The translations under genes and the position numbers were made by a program. 64,000 nucleotides of DNA, from NCBI GenBank assembly GCA_023265625.1, contig JAHFST010000013.1, forward strand, positions 1 to 64,000. Reading direction: 5' to 3'. Positions 13,187 through 30,170 of this stretch are shown piece by piece; within the stretch, counting starts at the first letter, position 1; every line of letters starts with the position of its first letter. The stretch is from Deltaproteobacteria bacterium (lineage in GTDB: Bacteria; UBA10199; JACPAL01; JAHFST01). The notes beneath the pieces were generated by a model. It had not been told where the DNA came from. It ran no database searches and worked only from the letters and a program-made list of their open reading frames with translations.

Positions 13187-13527
13187 GGGGGCGAAAAGGT
13201 TTCGACGGATGTTGGCAGTGACAGGTCGCAGGCCGAGGACGCCGGTCGCTCGTAAAACACTGGCACAAATGAAGTGACGCAGACTATGCGTTGGCTGCCT
13301 AAATAGGCAACCCGTCTTACCCCGGACTCCCACTACGGGGCTAAGACGCCATTGGTGGGATGGTTGTTTGACCGTGTCTCTGGATCAAACGGCGAGAAAA
13401 CTCAGGGGCTGGTCCCTGGAAACCCGGTCTTGAAGGTCCTCCAGGGATGAGAACAAAATCAAGACTAAGCCTGTAGCGGCAGTCGCCTTAAAACGTTCGG
13501 ACCCCGGTTCGATTCCGGGCGCCTCCA
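13187..13527 (+). ncRNA. ssrA: tmRNA (transfer-messenger RNA)
   Basis: Trans-translation RNA rescuing stalled ribosomes. The 5' acceptor strand GGGGGCG pairs with CGCCTCC at the 3' end, followed by discriminator A and no encoded CCA. Hallmarks are GGTTTCGACGG near the 5' end, GGTCGCAGGCC, CTCGTAAAACACTGG, and the T arm CGGTTCGATTCCGGG at 13505-13519. After AAGTGAC the resume codon GCA opens a tag reading ADYALAA followed by TAA. That is short but keeps the YALAA degradation end. The partner SmpB is not in the window. Confidence 0.95.
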
Positions 13528-13546
13528 TTTATGCGGGGAGAGATCC
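13504..13546. repeat. Left boundary repeat (attL-like) of the ssrA island
   Basis: 43-bp segment covering the tmRNA T arm, the 3' end and the first part of the downstream hairpin. It recurs at 16444-16485 with a single 1-base difference. Confidence 0.85.
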
Positions 13547-13560
13547 AGCTCTCTCCCCGC
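13533..13560 (+). terminator. Stem-loop after ssrA
   Basis: Perfect 10-bp stem gcggggagag/ctctccccgc with an 8-nt loop directly after the tmRNA 3' end. There is no U-run, so it may serve as a processing or termination structure. Confidence 0.55.
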
Positions 13561-13901
13561 ACCCCTCATCGAGTAATCGCGATCTCATCGTTCGCTCCGC
13601 TTGTCTGACTGGAGCAAGTCCAGCCAGACAATGCTCGCTCACTTTGTACCTCCTCTCGGTGCCGAAAGCTTCCTGGTAGAAACAGCGCAGTAATTTCATG
13701 AATGTGGGTGGGATGGAAGATTGAGATCTCGATCACTTGGGTTCAAAGGGTCGGCGAGACAGTGTATTAGTCCGTTCTCTGTAACATGAGTATAGTAAGG
13801 CCTTGACCCCTTTTTGACTTTTTGTTATTCAAGGCTCAGGGTTTTTGTGGTGAGGAAATATGCCTCATTTTAAGAGAACGAGGCGCCTGGATCAATAATA
13901 A
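13561..13901. other. Gene-free left part of the ssrA island
   Basis: No supportable gene. A 24-bp stretch at 13787-13810 (starting TGAGTATAGTAAGG) recurs at 16549-16572 just outside the right boundary with two mismatches. The duplication at the island ends is therefore larger than the 43-bp core or has been interrupted. Confidence 0.6.
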
Positions 13902-14195
13902 ATGAAACAGCTCTTAAGTCAGCCCCGTAGGGCATTTGGAATATTCATCATTTGGGTTTCCATTCACACAACGCTGTTATTGGTTTTTTCTGAGTACCCT
14001 ATCAGGATGTGGCACAATACCAGTTACGGCAACATGGCACGTCTATATGGCTCCGATACTGACTACAATGAATTTTGGCCGTTAACGGATTTTAATATCA
14101 AATACTATGACCTGAACGAATTTGTATTTTATATAATCACGCCCCTTCTAATATACACGGCAGTGAATCTTATCAGAACGAAACCAAAATCGTAG
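13902..14195 (+). CDS. Small hypothetical membrane protein
   Basis: 97 aa, not recognised. Two hydrophobic segments (about residues 12-30, FGIFIIWVSIHTTLLLVF, and 72-90, VFYIITPLLIYTAVNLI) flank a polar, Tyr- and Asn-rich loop of about 40 residues, giving a likely two-helix inner-membrane hairpin. It lies inside the ssrA island upstream of the toxin-antitoxin genes. There is no strong ribosome-binding site, so expression is uncertain. Confidence 0.5.
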   Translation: MKQLLSQPRRAFGIFIIWVSIHTTLLLVFSEYPIRMWHNTSYGNMARLYGSDTDYNEFWPLTDFNIKYYDLNEFVFYIITPLLIYTAVNLIRTKPKS

Positions 14196-14203
14196 TCACC
14201 CAG

Positions 14204-14233
14204 AAAACTTACGGGACGTTCTACACTAAGTCA
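14204..14233. repeat. 30-bp dispersed repeat, copy 1
   Basis: Matches 18017-18046 with one mismatch. Core ACTTACGGGACGTTCTACAC. A shorter related stretch (GGGGACGTTCTCCACTA) is at 42317-42333. Reminiscent of ends of transposon or REP-like repeats. Confidence 0.75.
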
Positions 14234-14257
14234 ACTAACTCCACTGCCGTTGTGTAA

Positions 14258-14462
14258 AGATTTCAGCCTATCAACAGTGTTGCCGGCGGTCTTTCACGAT
14301 CCTCACTGTATGCGCGAATTTTGCAAGGTTTGTGGCCCAAGCCCGTGAGTTTGGGAGCGCGAGCTGTTGGCTGGCCCTCAAATGAAGTGGCGGTAATTTT
14401 CGCTCGTGTTGCCGGGAAAGCCAAGGATGAGGTCCGTCAGCTTGTGGCGGATCTAGAAACCG
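14258..14462 (+). pseudogene. AlpA-family phage-type regulator remnant
   Basis: The frame encodes GLSRSSLYARILQGLWPKPVSLGARAVGWPSNEV and a helical tail ending near VADLETAR, which matches the helix-turn-helix core of AlpA-type excisionase/regulators of integrative elements. No start codon or N-terminal strand precedes it (TAA at 14255). The frame then runs into unrelated sequence and stops at 14539. It is a decayed piece of the island's regulatory module. Confidence 0.7.
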
Positions 14463-14651
14463 CTCGAGAGGTTAAAGGATGTATTGGGTGGCGAGCCGGT
14501 GTTCAAGGGAACGCGGGTTCCTGTCCAAGCACTTTTTGACTATCTAGAATCCGACCATCGACTTGAAGAGTTTTTGGACGATTTTCCCACGGTCAGCCGT
14601 GAACGAGCCATCGGTGTCCTTGAATTTTCCAAACAGACGGACTTGTCCTGA
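14457..14651 (+). pseudogene. DUF433 protein remnant
   Basis: A second frame reads ERLKDVLGGEPVFKGTRVPVQ, then a helical part with EEFLDDFPTVSRERAIGVLEF, and ends at TGA 14649-14651. This is the core of DUF433, a small HTH-like antitoxin-associated family. The usual N-terminus is missing (TAG at 14454) and it abuts the AlpA relic in another frame, so it is a truncated leftover rather than a working gene. Confidence 0.7.
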
Positions 14652-14708
14652 CAGGGTCAATGGCCGACAATTCGGTTTTAATTGCCTAAATTGGAGTTAT
14701 TTATAAAT

Positions 14709-14733
14709 AAAATGGACATATTATGTCCATTTT
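14709..14733. promoter_or_regulatory. Operator-promoter of the ssrA-island abiE operon
   Basis: A perfect 12-bp inverted repeat with a 1-base centre (aaaatggacata/tatgtccatttt) overlaps a -35-like TGGACA (14713-14718). A -10-like TATGTT follows at 14737. The GTG start at 14754 is only about 10 bp past it, so the message would be nearly leaderless. AbiEi proteins are known to autorepress through inverted repeats. Confidence 0.7.
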
Positions 14734-14753
14734 TGTTATGTTAAGATCTAATT

Positions 14754-15548
14754 GTGAAGCCTCATACCGTCAGTGAGTTCGTGGATCACCTGCAAAAGCG
14801 CGCGCGTTATACGTTCACCCGGACGGAGGTGGACGAGGTGTTGAATTTGGAACAGGCGGCGTTGACCAAGGGATTGCAACGTTTGCAACGGGCGGGACGG
14901 ATTCAAATGATTCGGCGCGGATTTTACGTCATTGTGCCGCTGGAATACGCAATAGGCGGTATCATTCCACCGGATTGGTTTATCGACGACCTTATGAAGT
15001 TTTTGGAACAGCCCTATTATGTGGGCGTGCTCACGGCGGCGGCGTTGCACGGCGCGAGCCATCAGCAACCGCAGGAATATCAGGTGGTGGTAGCGCTGCC
15101 GGAGCGTGCCATCAGCATGCCAAATCTGCGCATTCGATTTTTTCTAAAAAAAAGCATGGCGCAAGCGCCGGTGGAACAAGTGAAAGCTTACACAGGGTTT
15201 TTGCCGGTTTCGACATCGGCTGTGACAGCACTCGATCTGGTGCGTTTTGCACCGGCCATCGGCGGACTTGACGTGGTACTAACCGTACTGGAAGAATTGG
15301 TGGAGAAAATGACCGCGGAGGATTTATTGAAAGCCGCCCAGCAAGAATCTGAGCGCAGTCAAGTACAGCGTCTCGGTTGGTTGCTGGAACGGACAAAGGG
15401 CCGCAAACTTGCGGAGGGGTTGGCGCAGTGGCTGGTCAAGCAGAAGCCGACGAAGATACCGCTGAATGTGAGTGCCCCAATAGGTGGTAGTAAGAAAGAC
15501 TCGCGCTGGCAGGTGATTGTGAACGCCAAACCACAGAGTGAAATATGA
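14754..15548 (+). CDS. abiEi: AbiEi-type antitoxin (type IV TA)
   Basis: 264-aa protein of the AbiEi antitoxin/transcriptional regulator family. An N-terminal winged HTH (residues about 1-60: TRTEVDEVLNLEQAALTKGLQRLQRAGRIQ, RRGFYVIVP) is followed by the antitoxin domain with VGVLTAAALHGASHQQP and a VTALDLVRFAPAIGGLD segment. It is the first gene of a two-gene operon and overlaps the toxin gene by 4 bp (ATGA). The palindromic operator lies just upstream. It should counteract the nucleotidyltransferase toxin and repress the operon. GTG start. Confidence 0.88.
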   Translation: MKPHTVSEFVDHLQKRARYTFTRTEVDEVLNLEQAALTKGLQRLQRAGRIQMIRRGFYVIVPLEYAIGGIIPPDWFIDDLMKFLEQPYYVGVLTAAALHGASHQQPQEYQVVVALPERAISMPNLRIRFFLKKSMAQAPVEQVKAYTGFLPVSTSAVTALDLVRFAPAIGGLDVVLTVLEELVEKMTAEDLLKAAQQESERSQVQRLGWLLERTKGRKLAEGLAQWLVKQKPTKIPLNVSAPIGGSKKDSRWQVIVNAKPQSEI

Positions 15549-16336
15549 TACCAACGGCTGACATCCTGGCATGGCGTACGAAAAATCCTTGGGTTTCCAA
15601 CGCACAGGTGGAACAAGATTTGATCATTTGTCGGGCAGTCGTTGAGTTGTTCTCGCATCCGCTATTGCGCGAGCAACTGGCCTTCCGCGGTGGTACGGCG
15701 TTGCACAAATTGTTCCTGAAACCTGCCACACGATATTCTGAAGACATTGATCTGGTTCAAATGAAGCCTGGCGCGATCGGTCCGGTGATGGATGGCGTAC
15801 ATGAAGCATTGGATTCGTGGTTGGGCACACCCAGGCGAGAGCAGAAGGAAGGCAACACGACGCTGATATATCGGGTCAACTCGGAGCTTGCGCCGATCGT
15901 GCCGCTCCGACTGAAGATCGAAATAAATACGCGGGAGCATTTTACATTATTGGGGCTTGTGGAACAGCCCCTGGCAGTGGAATCGCGCTGGTTCACTGGG
16001 CAGTCAGCGATTCCAACTTTTGGCTTGGATGAATTGCTCGGTACGAAATTGAGGGCACTCTATCAACGGCGCAAAGGCCGGGATTTATTTGATCTCTGGT
16101 TGGGCTTGACTCGAGGTGGTGCCAATGCGGCGAAGGTGGTGGAAGTATTTCTCAAATATCTGGCAGCTGAAGGGAGGGTTATTTCACGAGTAGAGTTCGA
16201 ACAGAACCTGGCACAGAAGATGAAGCACGCCGGTTTCTTGAGCGATCTGTCGCCGTTACTGCGACCCGGGATTACTTACGACATGATGGAAGCCGGTCGA
16301 CTTGTCGAGGAAGAATTGGTAGCGCGTTTAGGGTAG
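15545..16336 (+). CDS. abiEii: AbiEii-type nucleotidyltransferase toxin
   Basis: 263-aa member of the AbiEii/AbiGii DNA-polymerase-beta-like nucleotidyltransferase superfamily. Motif I FRGGTALHKLF (GGT), the metal-binding motif YSEDIDL (DxD), KIEIN and the KLRALYQRRKGRDLFDLW motif are intact, so it should be catalytically competent. Family members inhibit growth by modifying tRNA or nucleotides and confer phage resistance by abortive infection. It is the second gene of the operon. The ATGA overlap enforces stoichiometric translation with the antitoxin. Confidence 0.9.
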   Translation: MIPTADILAWRTKNPWVSNAQVEQDLIICRAVVELFSHPLLREQLAFRGGTALHKLFLKPATRYSEDIDLVQMKPGAIGPVMDGVHEALDSWLGTPRREQKEGNTTLIYRVNSELAPIVPLRLKIEINTREHFTLLGLVEQPLAVESRWFTGQSAIPTFGLDELLGTKLRALYQRRKGRDLFDLWLGLTRGGANAAKVVEVFLKYLAAEGRVISRVEFEQNLAQKMKHAGFLSDLSPLLRPGITYDMMEAGRLVEEELVARLG

Positions 16337-16443
16337 GGAATATGGCAGGTTTTATAAACAGACAAATAGGTATGGGGGCAACTTTGGGGGCATCTGGCTT
16401 GACAGTGGGGAGTGAAAACCAGCAATCACGGCAACTTATGTGA

Positions 16444-16485
16444 CCGGTTCGATTCCGGGCGCCCCATTTATGCGGGGAGAGATCC
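16444..16485. repeat. Right boundary repeat (attR-like) of the ssrA island
   Basis: Second copy of the tmRNA T arm, 3' end and start of the terminator, 42 of 43 positions identical to 13504-13546. Nothing resembling the rest of tmRNA precedes it. Confidence 0.85.
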
Positions 16486-26909: not shown

Positions 26910-26969
26910 CAGTGGTAGAGTAGGTGACTGTTAATCACTTGGTCGCAGGTTCGAATCCTGCCCGCGGAG
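26898..26969 (+). tRNA. tRNA-Asn (anticodon GTT)
   Basis: Complete cloverleaf. Acceptor TCCGCGG/CCGCGGA, D arm GCTCAGTGGTAGAGT, anticodon loop CTGTTAA with GTT, T arm CAGGTTCGAATCCTG, discriminator G and no encoded CCA. The 5' end is duplicated upstream of the GIY-YIG gene. The 3' end plus terminator is duplicated at 30112. Confidence 0.95.
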
Positions 26970-27023
26970 TATTAAAAAAGCCCTCATTAAGAGGGCTTTT
27001 TTATTTTCTAAAAATGAATCTAT
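26966..27023. repeat. Left boundary repeat (attL-like) of the tRNA-Asn island
   Basis: Starts GGAGTATTAAAAAAGCCCTC, includes the terminator hairpin and ends AATCTAT. Matches 30112-30170. Confidence 0.8.
26975..27002 (+). terminator. Rho-independent terminator of tRNA-Asn
   Basis: Stem gccctc/gagggc followed by TTTTTT, directly after the tRNA. The A-run on the other side makes it bidirectional. A near-identical copy is at 30118-30148. Confidence 0.9.
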
Positions 27024-27040
27024 GTAAACAGGGGACTACG

Positions 27041-30111: not shown

Positions 30112-30170
30112 GGAGTATTAAAAAAGCCCTCATGTAAGAGGGCTTTTTTATTTTCTAAAAATAAATCTAT
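30112..30170. repeat. Right boundary repeat (attR-like) of the tRNA-Asn island
   Basis: Copy of the tRNA-Asn 3' tail, terminator and flank. Only about five tRNA bases (GGAGT) are present, so no second tRNA is formed. Confidence 0.8.

Follow-up and report, generated by a model that had tools for sequence, protein, structure and literature searches.

The gene for transfer-messenger RNA (tmRNA), the ribosome-rescue RNA, is a known target of integrated islands. In E. coli K-12, the 22-kb island CP4-57 occupies this gene, ssrA, with a core in the T loop; it has kept its integrase and an alpA gene and carries a toxin-antitoxin (TA) pair, yfjZ-ypjF, just inside its right attachment end (attR). Excision of CP4-57 deletes U357 and inactivates the tmRNA (PMC10107115). 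Likewise, the 36-kb CP4So of Shewanella oneidensis, an island with a P4-like integrase and AlpA at ssrA, can excise at low temperature, whereupon the same U is deleted (PMC5148205). In both cases, excision moves the deletion into ssrA (PMC5148205, PMC10107115). Here, we describe a locus of this kind in a 64,000-nucleotide stretch of a Deltaproteobacteria bacterium (GCA_023265625.1, contig JAHFST010000013.1, positions 1 to 64,000; hereafter the window), where ssrA is followed by a segment of about 2.9 kb that carries an AbiE operon and is bounded by a repeat of the ssrA 3' end.

Islands bounded by ssrA repeats are also found in Dehalococcoides, where 15 of them are without an integration module and were proposed to be cis-mobilizable (PMC3146451); these differ from the present case in that their integrase is a serine recombinase and their cargo consists of reductive dehalogenase genes. 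The cargo of the window island has its closest known counterparts in the AbiE systems of S. agalactiae and of ICESsuHN105, an integrative and conjugative element (ICE) of S. suis, with which it shares a two-gene operon, a DNA-binding antitoxin, a promoter palindrome (PMC3985639, PMC11062541) and a nucleotidyltransferase toxin with motifs I-IV. There, two palindromes are present instead of the one found here, and the operon of the window belongs to the remnant of an island and not to an active ICE. AbiE can stabilise plasmids, ICE stability is affected by AbiEi (PMC3985639, PMC11062541), and some AbiE systems can give protection against phage (PMC3985639).

The segment is, with good probability, what remains of the right-hand part of a CP4-57-type ssrA island, that is, a derivative from which the integrase was deleted and which is probably kept by AbiE and by the loss of one U from the displaced ssrA end. 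Islands of this kind are already known; what is of wider interest is that one and the same base has been lost repeatedly from the displaced end. Coordinates below are those of the window, and all features except the palindrome, which has no strand, lie on the forward strand.

Attachment ends and the displaced ssrA end

The original prediction, made from the letters of the window alone, described a complete tmRNA gene followed by about 2.9 kb ending in a 42/43-bp copy of its T arm and 3' end. Both statements are confirmed. ARAGORN places ssrA at 13187-13527, and Rfam RF00023 matches 13187-13530 with 158.5 bits. The left copy (attL; 13504-13546, 43 nt) comprises the T arm, the 3' strand of the acceptor stem and the first 19 nt downstream, whereas the right copy (attR; 16444-16485, 42 nt), representing the displaced original ssrA 3' end, differs solely by the absence of T13524. 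Elsewhere in the window, 30 kb of DNA contained nothing closer to the 43-mer than an ungapped match with 20 mismatches, and a search of the 2.93-Mb genome did not reveal a third copy. Such a direct copy of T arm and 3' end at the distal boundary is a hallmark of CP4-57/P4-type islands, and the 3' half of ssrA from the T loop onward was probably supplied by the island. The tag peptide called by ARAGORN (EVTQTMRWLPK, 13276-13302) probably comes from an incorrect reading frame; translation in a different frame gives DADYALAA directly before a stop, which is how a tmRNA tag should end.

Inside attR, direct repeats of TGGGGGCAACTTTGGGGGCA (16373-16392) lie 74 and 62 nt before the T-loop core. CP4-57 also has two direct repeats before attR, the second of them at the same 62 nt from the core, although the repeat sequence differs. 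When 46 genomes of the phylum were searched with a 22-mer arm motif, allowing at most two mismatches, nine matches were obtained, compared with none for the reversed control. One match is located at an attL (G004:C4:212) and one is without its core (G004:C4:20218); the other seven precede the T-loop sequence of ssrA or of a tRNA. GGTTCG lies 75 nt from the first base of the 22-mer in the window and in G004, G005, G015, G022 and G034, and this spacing is identical in G003, even though the repeat has three mismatches there. We read the TGGGGGCAACTTTGGGGGCA repeats as arm-type sites for a CP4-57/P4-type tyrosine integrase, because such integrase genes start directly after ssrA in G003, G022, G034 and G044. 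In G004, the integrase gene, encoding Arm-DNA-bind_3, Phage_int_M and Phage_integrase domains, follows ssrA across a contig break. Arm repeats at a fixed distance from the core are characteristic of attR in islands of the CP4-57/P4 type, and the attR of the window looks intact. The arm-type sites that such islands have at attL are missing: this end consists of the core only, and no sequence resembling TGGGGGCAAC at two or fewer mismatches in ten positions was found between 13546 and 16372. The fixed distance between arm repeat and T-loop core provides a simple search signature for the ends of islands that have lost their integrase.

The arm motif is also common in other phyla (at least 117 loci, with varied cores). 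Two further arrangements were noted within the phylum. In G005 (L029, G005:C137, 17548-18918), an arm-plus-core end is found on the strand opposite to ssrA and upstream of that gene, a layout not produced by simple insertion at the ssrA 3' end. A mini-element of about 1.7 kb at a tRNA-Leu gene (L067, G008:C8, 5914-7690) apparently holds little beyond an integrase gene between two arm sites.

The base absent from attR, between 16463 and 16464, corresponds to the T of CCTCCA at 13524. In the acceptor stem of the tmRNA (GGGGGCG / CGCCUCC), it is the U paired to G3, and the G3·U pair is the identity pair for alanyl-tRNA synthetase (PMC10107115). The equivalent base is also absent from attR of G015 and G034, as well as from that of G022, which has one further change, and from that of G005, in which three bases including this T are absent. 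It is retained in G003, G004 and the second copy of G034, i.e., in three of eight attR copies of the phylum. The attR of CP4-57 carries the same one-base deletion. The 3' half of the G004 attR has the form of ssrA in the family member G002, while its attL form differs, with a corresponding change in the stem of the T arm; the crossover therefore maps to the T loop. An origin of the missing T in the island's own copy is disfavoured, since attR 3' halves match host-specific ssrA and the G004 attR keeps the G002 form.

If the window island were to leave via the T loop, ssrA would receive an end without the U. Loss of the island by such excision would likely damage the tmRNA, as reported for CP4-57 and CP4So, so that the cell may pay with its rescue RNA when the island leaves. 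This would give the remnant a reason to persist that is independent of the toxin. The U would be spared by a homologous exchange that fell within the final 22 nt of the repeat, on the right-hand side of the absent base.

Gene content of the island

The segment carries an intact AbiE operon. abiEi (14754-15548; PF09407, 9.6e-36; PF13338, 2e-7) encodes a predicted antitoxin and probable autorepressor of 264 aa, and abiEii (15545-16336; PF08843, 2.9e-36) a predicted nucleotidyltransferase toxin of 263 aa with intact motifs I-IV; the two genes overlap by ATGA. PADLOC gives 4e-89 for AbiEi and 3.9e-108 for AbiEii. The bicistronic organisation and an AbiEi with winged-helix and C-terminal domains (PF13338, PF09407) are those of type IV TA systems, as is an AbiEii of the DUF1814 nucleotidyltransferase family with motifs I-IV. 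Residues G49, R63, D67, D69, K168, R175, D180 and D183 of AbiEii are invariant across nine homologues and correspond to residues that are important in the S. agalactiae protein; the first four are identically numbered there, and K168, R175, D180 and D183 fall in the later motifs (PMC3985639). Upstream of abiEi, a 25-nt palindrome, AAAATGGACATATTATGTCCATTTT (14709-14733), with perfect 12-bp arms around a single base, is the probable AbiEi operator. The nearest AbiEii relatives are 41-63% identical, and at their loci neither an arm site nor a nearby tRNA gene was found. A search of solved structures by sequence gave no match for AbiEi or AbiEii.

Between attL and the operon lie two relics. An alpA gene that has lost its N-terminus (14288-14481; PF05930, 7.4e-9) is all that is left in the island of an AlpA regulator or excisionase. 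It is followed by a DUF433 gene (14475-14648; PF04255, 4.1e-14) that has lost its N-terminus and its DUF5615 partner. A tblastn search of the window, using a family member as query, detected neither an integrase nor an integrase fragment, and the position directly after ssrA, where CP4-57/P4-type islands have their tyrosine integrase, is without one. In the 2.93-Mb genome, PF00589 is represented by two genes only, one XerD-like (293 aa) and one XerC-like (280 aa), the latter after a topA-like gene. Because no integrase other than these is found in the island or the genome, the island is classified as a derivative and not as an intact member of the CP4-57/P4 type. The content given in the original prediction, an AbiEi/AbiEii pair with a perfect operator, relics of AlpA and DUF433 and no integrase, is upheld by the domain matches, the palindrome (as a predicted operator) and the negative tblastn search; the cognate tyrosine integrase that it proposed to look for elsewhere in the genome did not turn up.

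Relatives in the same order carry related islands at ssrA. An intact island of 8.9 kb in G003 is arranged in the order ssrA, integrase, other genes, AlpA, a HigB/HigA-like pair (Gp49, HTH_37), arm repeats and core. It resembles the window island in its core, in the arm repeats and their spacing, in alpA (77% DNA identity to the relic over 197 bases) and in the TA slot beside attR. It differs in having an integrase and left arm sites, in the HigBA pair and in retaining the T in attR. At ssrA of G004 (L027/L054, G004:C4, 1-20300), an 18.6-kb integrase island is followed in tandem by a 1.6-kb segment without integrase, which contains arm repeats and an intact DUF433-DUF5615 pair; the DUF433 relic of the window is 86-88% identical in DNA to the gene of this pair. 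Judged by these similarities, the window island is a mosaic of right-end material (AlpA, TA slot, arm repeats and core), as its AlpA relic matches G003 and its DUF433 relic matches G004. In three members of the order, the TA slot beside attR holds HigBA, DUF433/DUF5615 and AbiE, respectively. The relatives are without this AbiE, and some of their ssrA sites have an island of this sort whereas others do not. A Fic-like gene follows in both G003 and G004, and a homologue is present at C3:65141 on the contig of the window.

In addition to the shared target, T-loop core and alpA, CP4-57 parallels the window in the TA pair just inside attR; it differs in that the window island is without an integrase, has AlpA as a relic only and carries AbiE as its pair. 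TA genes are not a general rule beside the arm motif: at the nearest open reading frame (ORF) of 82 attR-like loci in other bacteria, no TA enrichment was seen, which limits the pattern to this order and CP4-57.

Origin, retention and mobility

These data can be accommodated as follows. A tyrosine integrase with an Arm-DNA-bind_3 (DUF4102-type) domain would have inserted the island into the T loop of ssrA, such that the island's copy became the working tmRNA 3' end and the original end was displaced to attR. The left end, with its arm sites and integrase, would later have been lost and replaced by repeats and other sequence, whereas the right end, consisting of the AlpA relic, TA slot, arm repeats and core, survived. 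AbiE fills the TA slot in which relatives carry HigBA or DUF433/DUF5615. The remnant was probably retained because AbiE would punish loss of the island and because attR lacks the T of the G3·U pair, excision presumably leaving a tmRNA that is charged poorly or not at all by alanyl-tRNA synthetase. Read in this way, the locus is a clear case of a mobile island decaying to a TA pair and one attachment end.

Several observations weigh against this account. The identity of attL and attR extends 19 nt beyond ssrA, into a repeat of host type; being longer than a typical core, it could point to later homogenisation. None of the genomes used for comparison belongs to the genus or family, so that neither an empty site in the same genus nor the succession of events is directly visible, and a contig scan with the 761-aa protein of the left flank found no relative. 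The genome is 95.6% complete, and an integrase could be located on a missing contig. Finally, the order of events, the activity of AbiE and the cost of excision are deduced, the last by analogy with CP4-57 and CP4So, for which others have shown it.

The recurrence of the missing base has a bearing beyond this locus. It is conceivable, though we consider it rather doubtful, that ssrA islands repeatedly gain the same defect in the displaced end, so that the host has a chargeable tmRNA only while the island is present. If true, such a hostage effect would act independently of any TA system, would stabilise islands without integrase and would explain ssrA remnants in distant phyla. Finding the U deletion in an unrelated phylum turns the special cases of CP4-57 and CP4So into a testable general idea, in which the tmRNA 3' end is held hostage.

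An alternative that keeps the same remnant but explains its retention otherwise is quite possible, if short of probable. AbiE would persist because it benefits the host as a defence against phage, and the T would have been lost by neutral decay of displaced sequence. The phage protection reported for AbiE systems (PMC3985639) is consistent with this, the 14 AbiEii genes of the genome would suit a defence arsenal, and the T is retained in three of the eight attR copies. However, the same base was lost in three separate islands of the phylum, in CP4-57 and in CP4So while the remaining core stayed intact, which would be rare under free decay.

The original prediction left open whether the island is a satellite moved by the integrase of another element or a stabilised remnant. 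The latter fits best; a satellite is unlikely at present, with no cognate integrase in the genome and the left arm gone. The island can probably not move or excise alone, since integrase and left arm are absent from it, its AlpA is only a relic, and no cognate integrase is encoded elsewhere in the genome. Features of phage-inducible chromosomal islands (own integrase, regulators, genes interfering with or exploiting a helper phage) were absent from the ORFs, which does not fit a phage-inducible satellite of that type. As in a cis-mobilizable element, the island contains no integration or transfer genes, and it may be one: immobile by itself, its old attR would recombine with the attL of an incoming island of the same type, using the newcomer's integrase, and AbiE would leave alongside it. 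Such accretion is unlikely here, but has several points in its favour. attR has both arm repeats at the correct spacing and an intact T-loop core, and the tandem arrangement in G004, an integrase island followed by a small integrase-less TA segment ending in arm repeats, is close to the predicted composite and suggestive of accretion. Moreover, the integrase-less Dehalococcoides islands were proposed to be mobilized in this manner (PMC3146451), and a route of decay followed by accretion has been described for integrative elements (PMC5704250). On the other hand, the genome is now without an integrase of this kind, the distal core of the G004 tandem is lost, and ssrA would still end up one base short if the exit used this attR.

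It is highly improbable that the repeat and segment arose without any integrase. In that case, dispersed repeats, in which this genome is rich, would have recombined homologously or illegitimately, and such repeats do lie on both sides (13534-13643, 13787/16549 and 14201/18015). However, the duplicated unit begins in the T arm of ssrA, of which no further copy was found in the genome, and integrase islands at ssrA in relatives have counterparts of the AlpA relic and of the arm repeats with their fixed spacing; the arm repeats and the comparison with G003 largely refute this origin.

Neighbouring AbiE loci and dispersed repeats

A second AbiE locus lies at a tRNA-Asn gene 13 kb from that at ssrA, and the two had been proposed to represent AbiE cargoes at two RNA-gene attachment sites. 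A second site of the same kind as that at ssrA is not supported: the tRNA-Asn locus has no T-arm copy and no arm sites, and was rejected as such. It is flanked instead by a 59-nt duplication (97% identity; 26966-27024 and 30112-30170) comprising the last bases of the tRNA and the terminator. Because the genome (G000) has 14 AbiEii genes, three of which are on the 89-kb contig of the window (C3, at 15.6, 28.5 and 79.1 kb), two nearby AbiE loci constitute weak evidence. Proximity of AbiE to RNA genes as a general pattern was likewise rejected, a tRNA lying within 1.5 kb of only one of 12 other AbiEii loci.

The left part of the segment also contains dispersed repeats. A noncoding two-hairpin element of about 110 nt, whose stems vary while pairing is kept, occurs at 13534-13643, overlapping the end of attL; its first hairpin resembles the ssrA terminator. 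At least 11 further copies are present in the genome (C25:86636, C37:254494, C32:86929, C15:11662, C3:70343, C28:6203, C16:111529, C30:118240, C30:67549, C37:104295 and C6:210748), and three copies are directly 3' of tRNA genes. No Rfam family matched the element in the window at curated thresholds. It may be of the repetitive extragenic palindrome (REP) type, as the genome also has 10 Y1_Tnp transposase genes. A repeat of the form TGAGTATAGTAAGG...TGACCCC, at 13787 and 16549, was considered as part of the attachment duplication and rejected as a dispersed repeat; it has several copies in the genome, some of which form inverted pairs. A 33-nt repeat, CTTACGGGACGTTCTACACTAAGTCA, is found at 14201 and 18015 and has several further copies in the genome.

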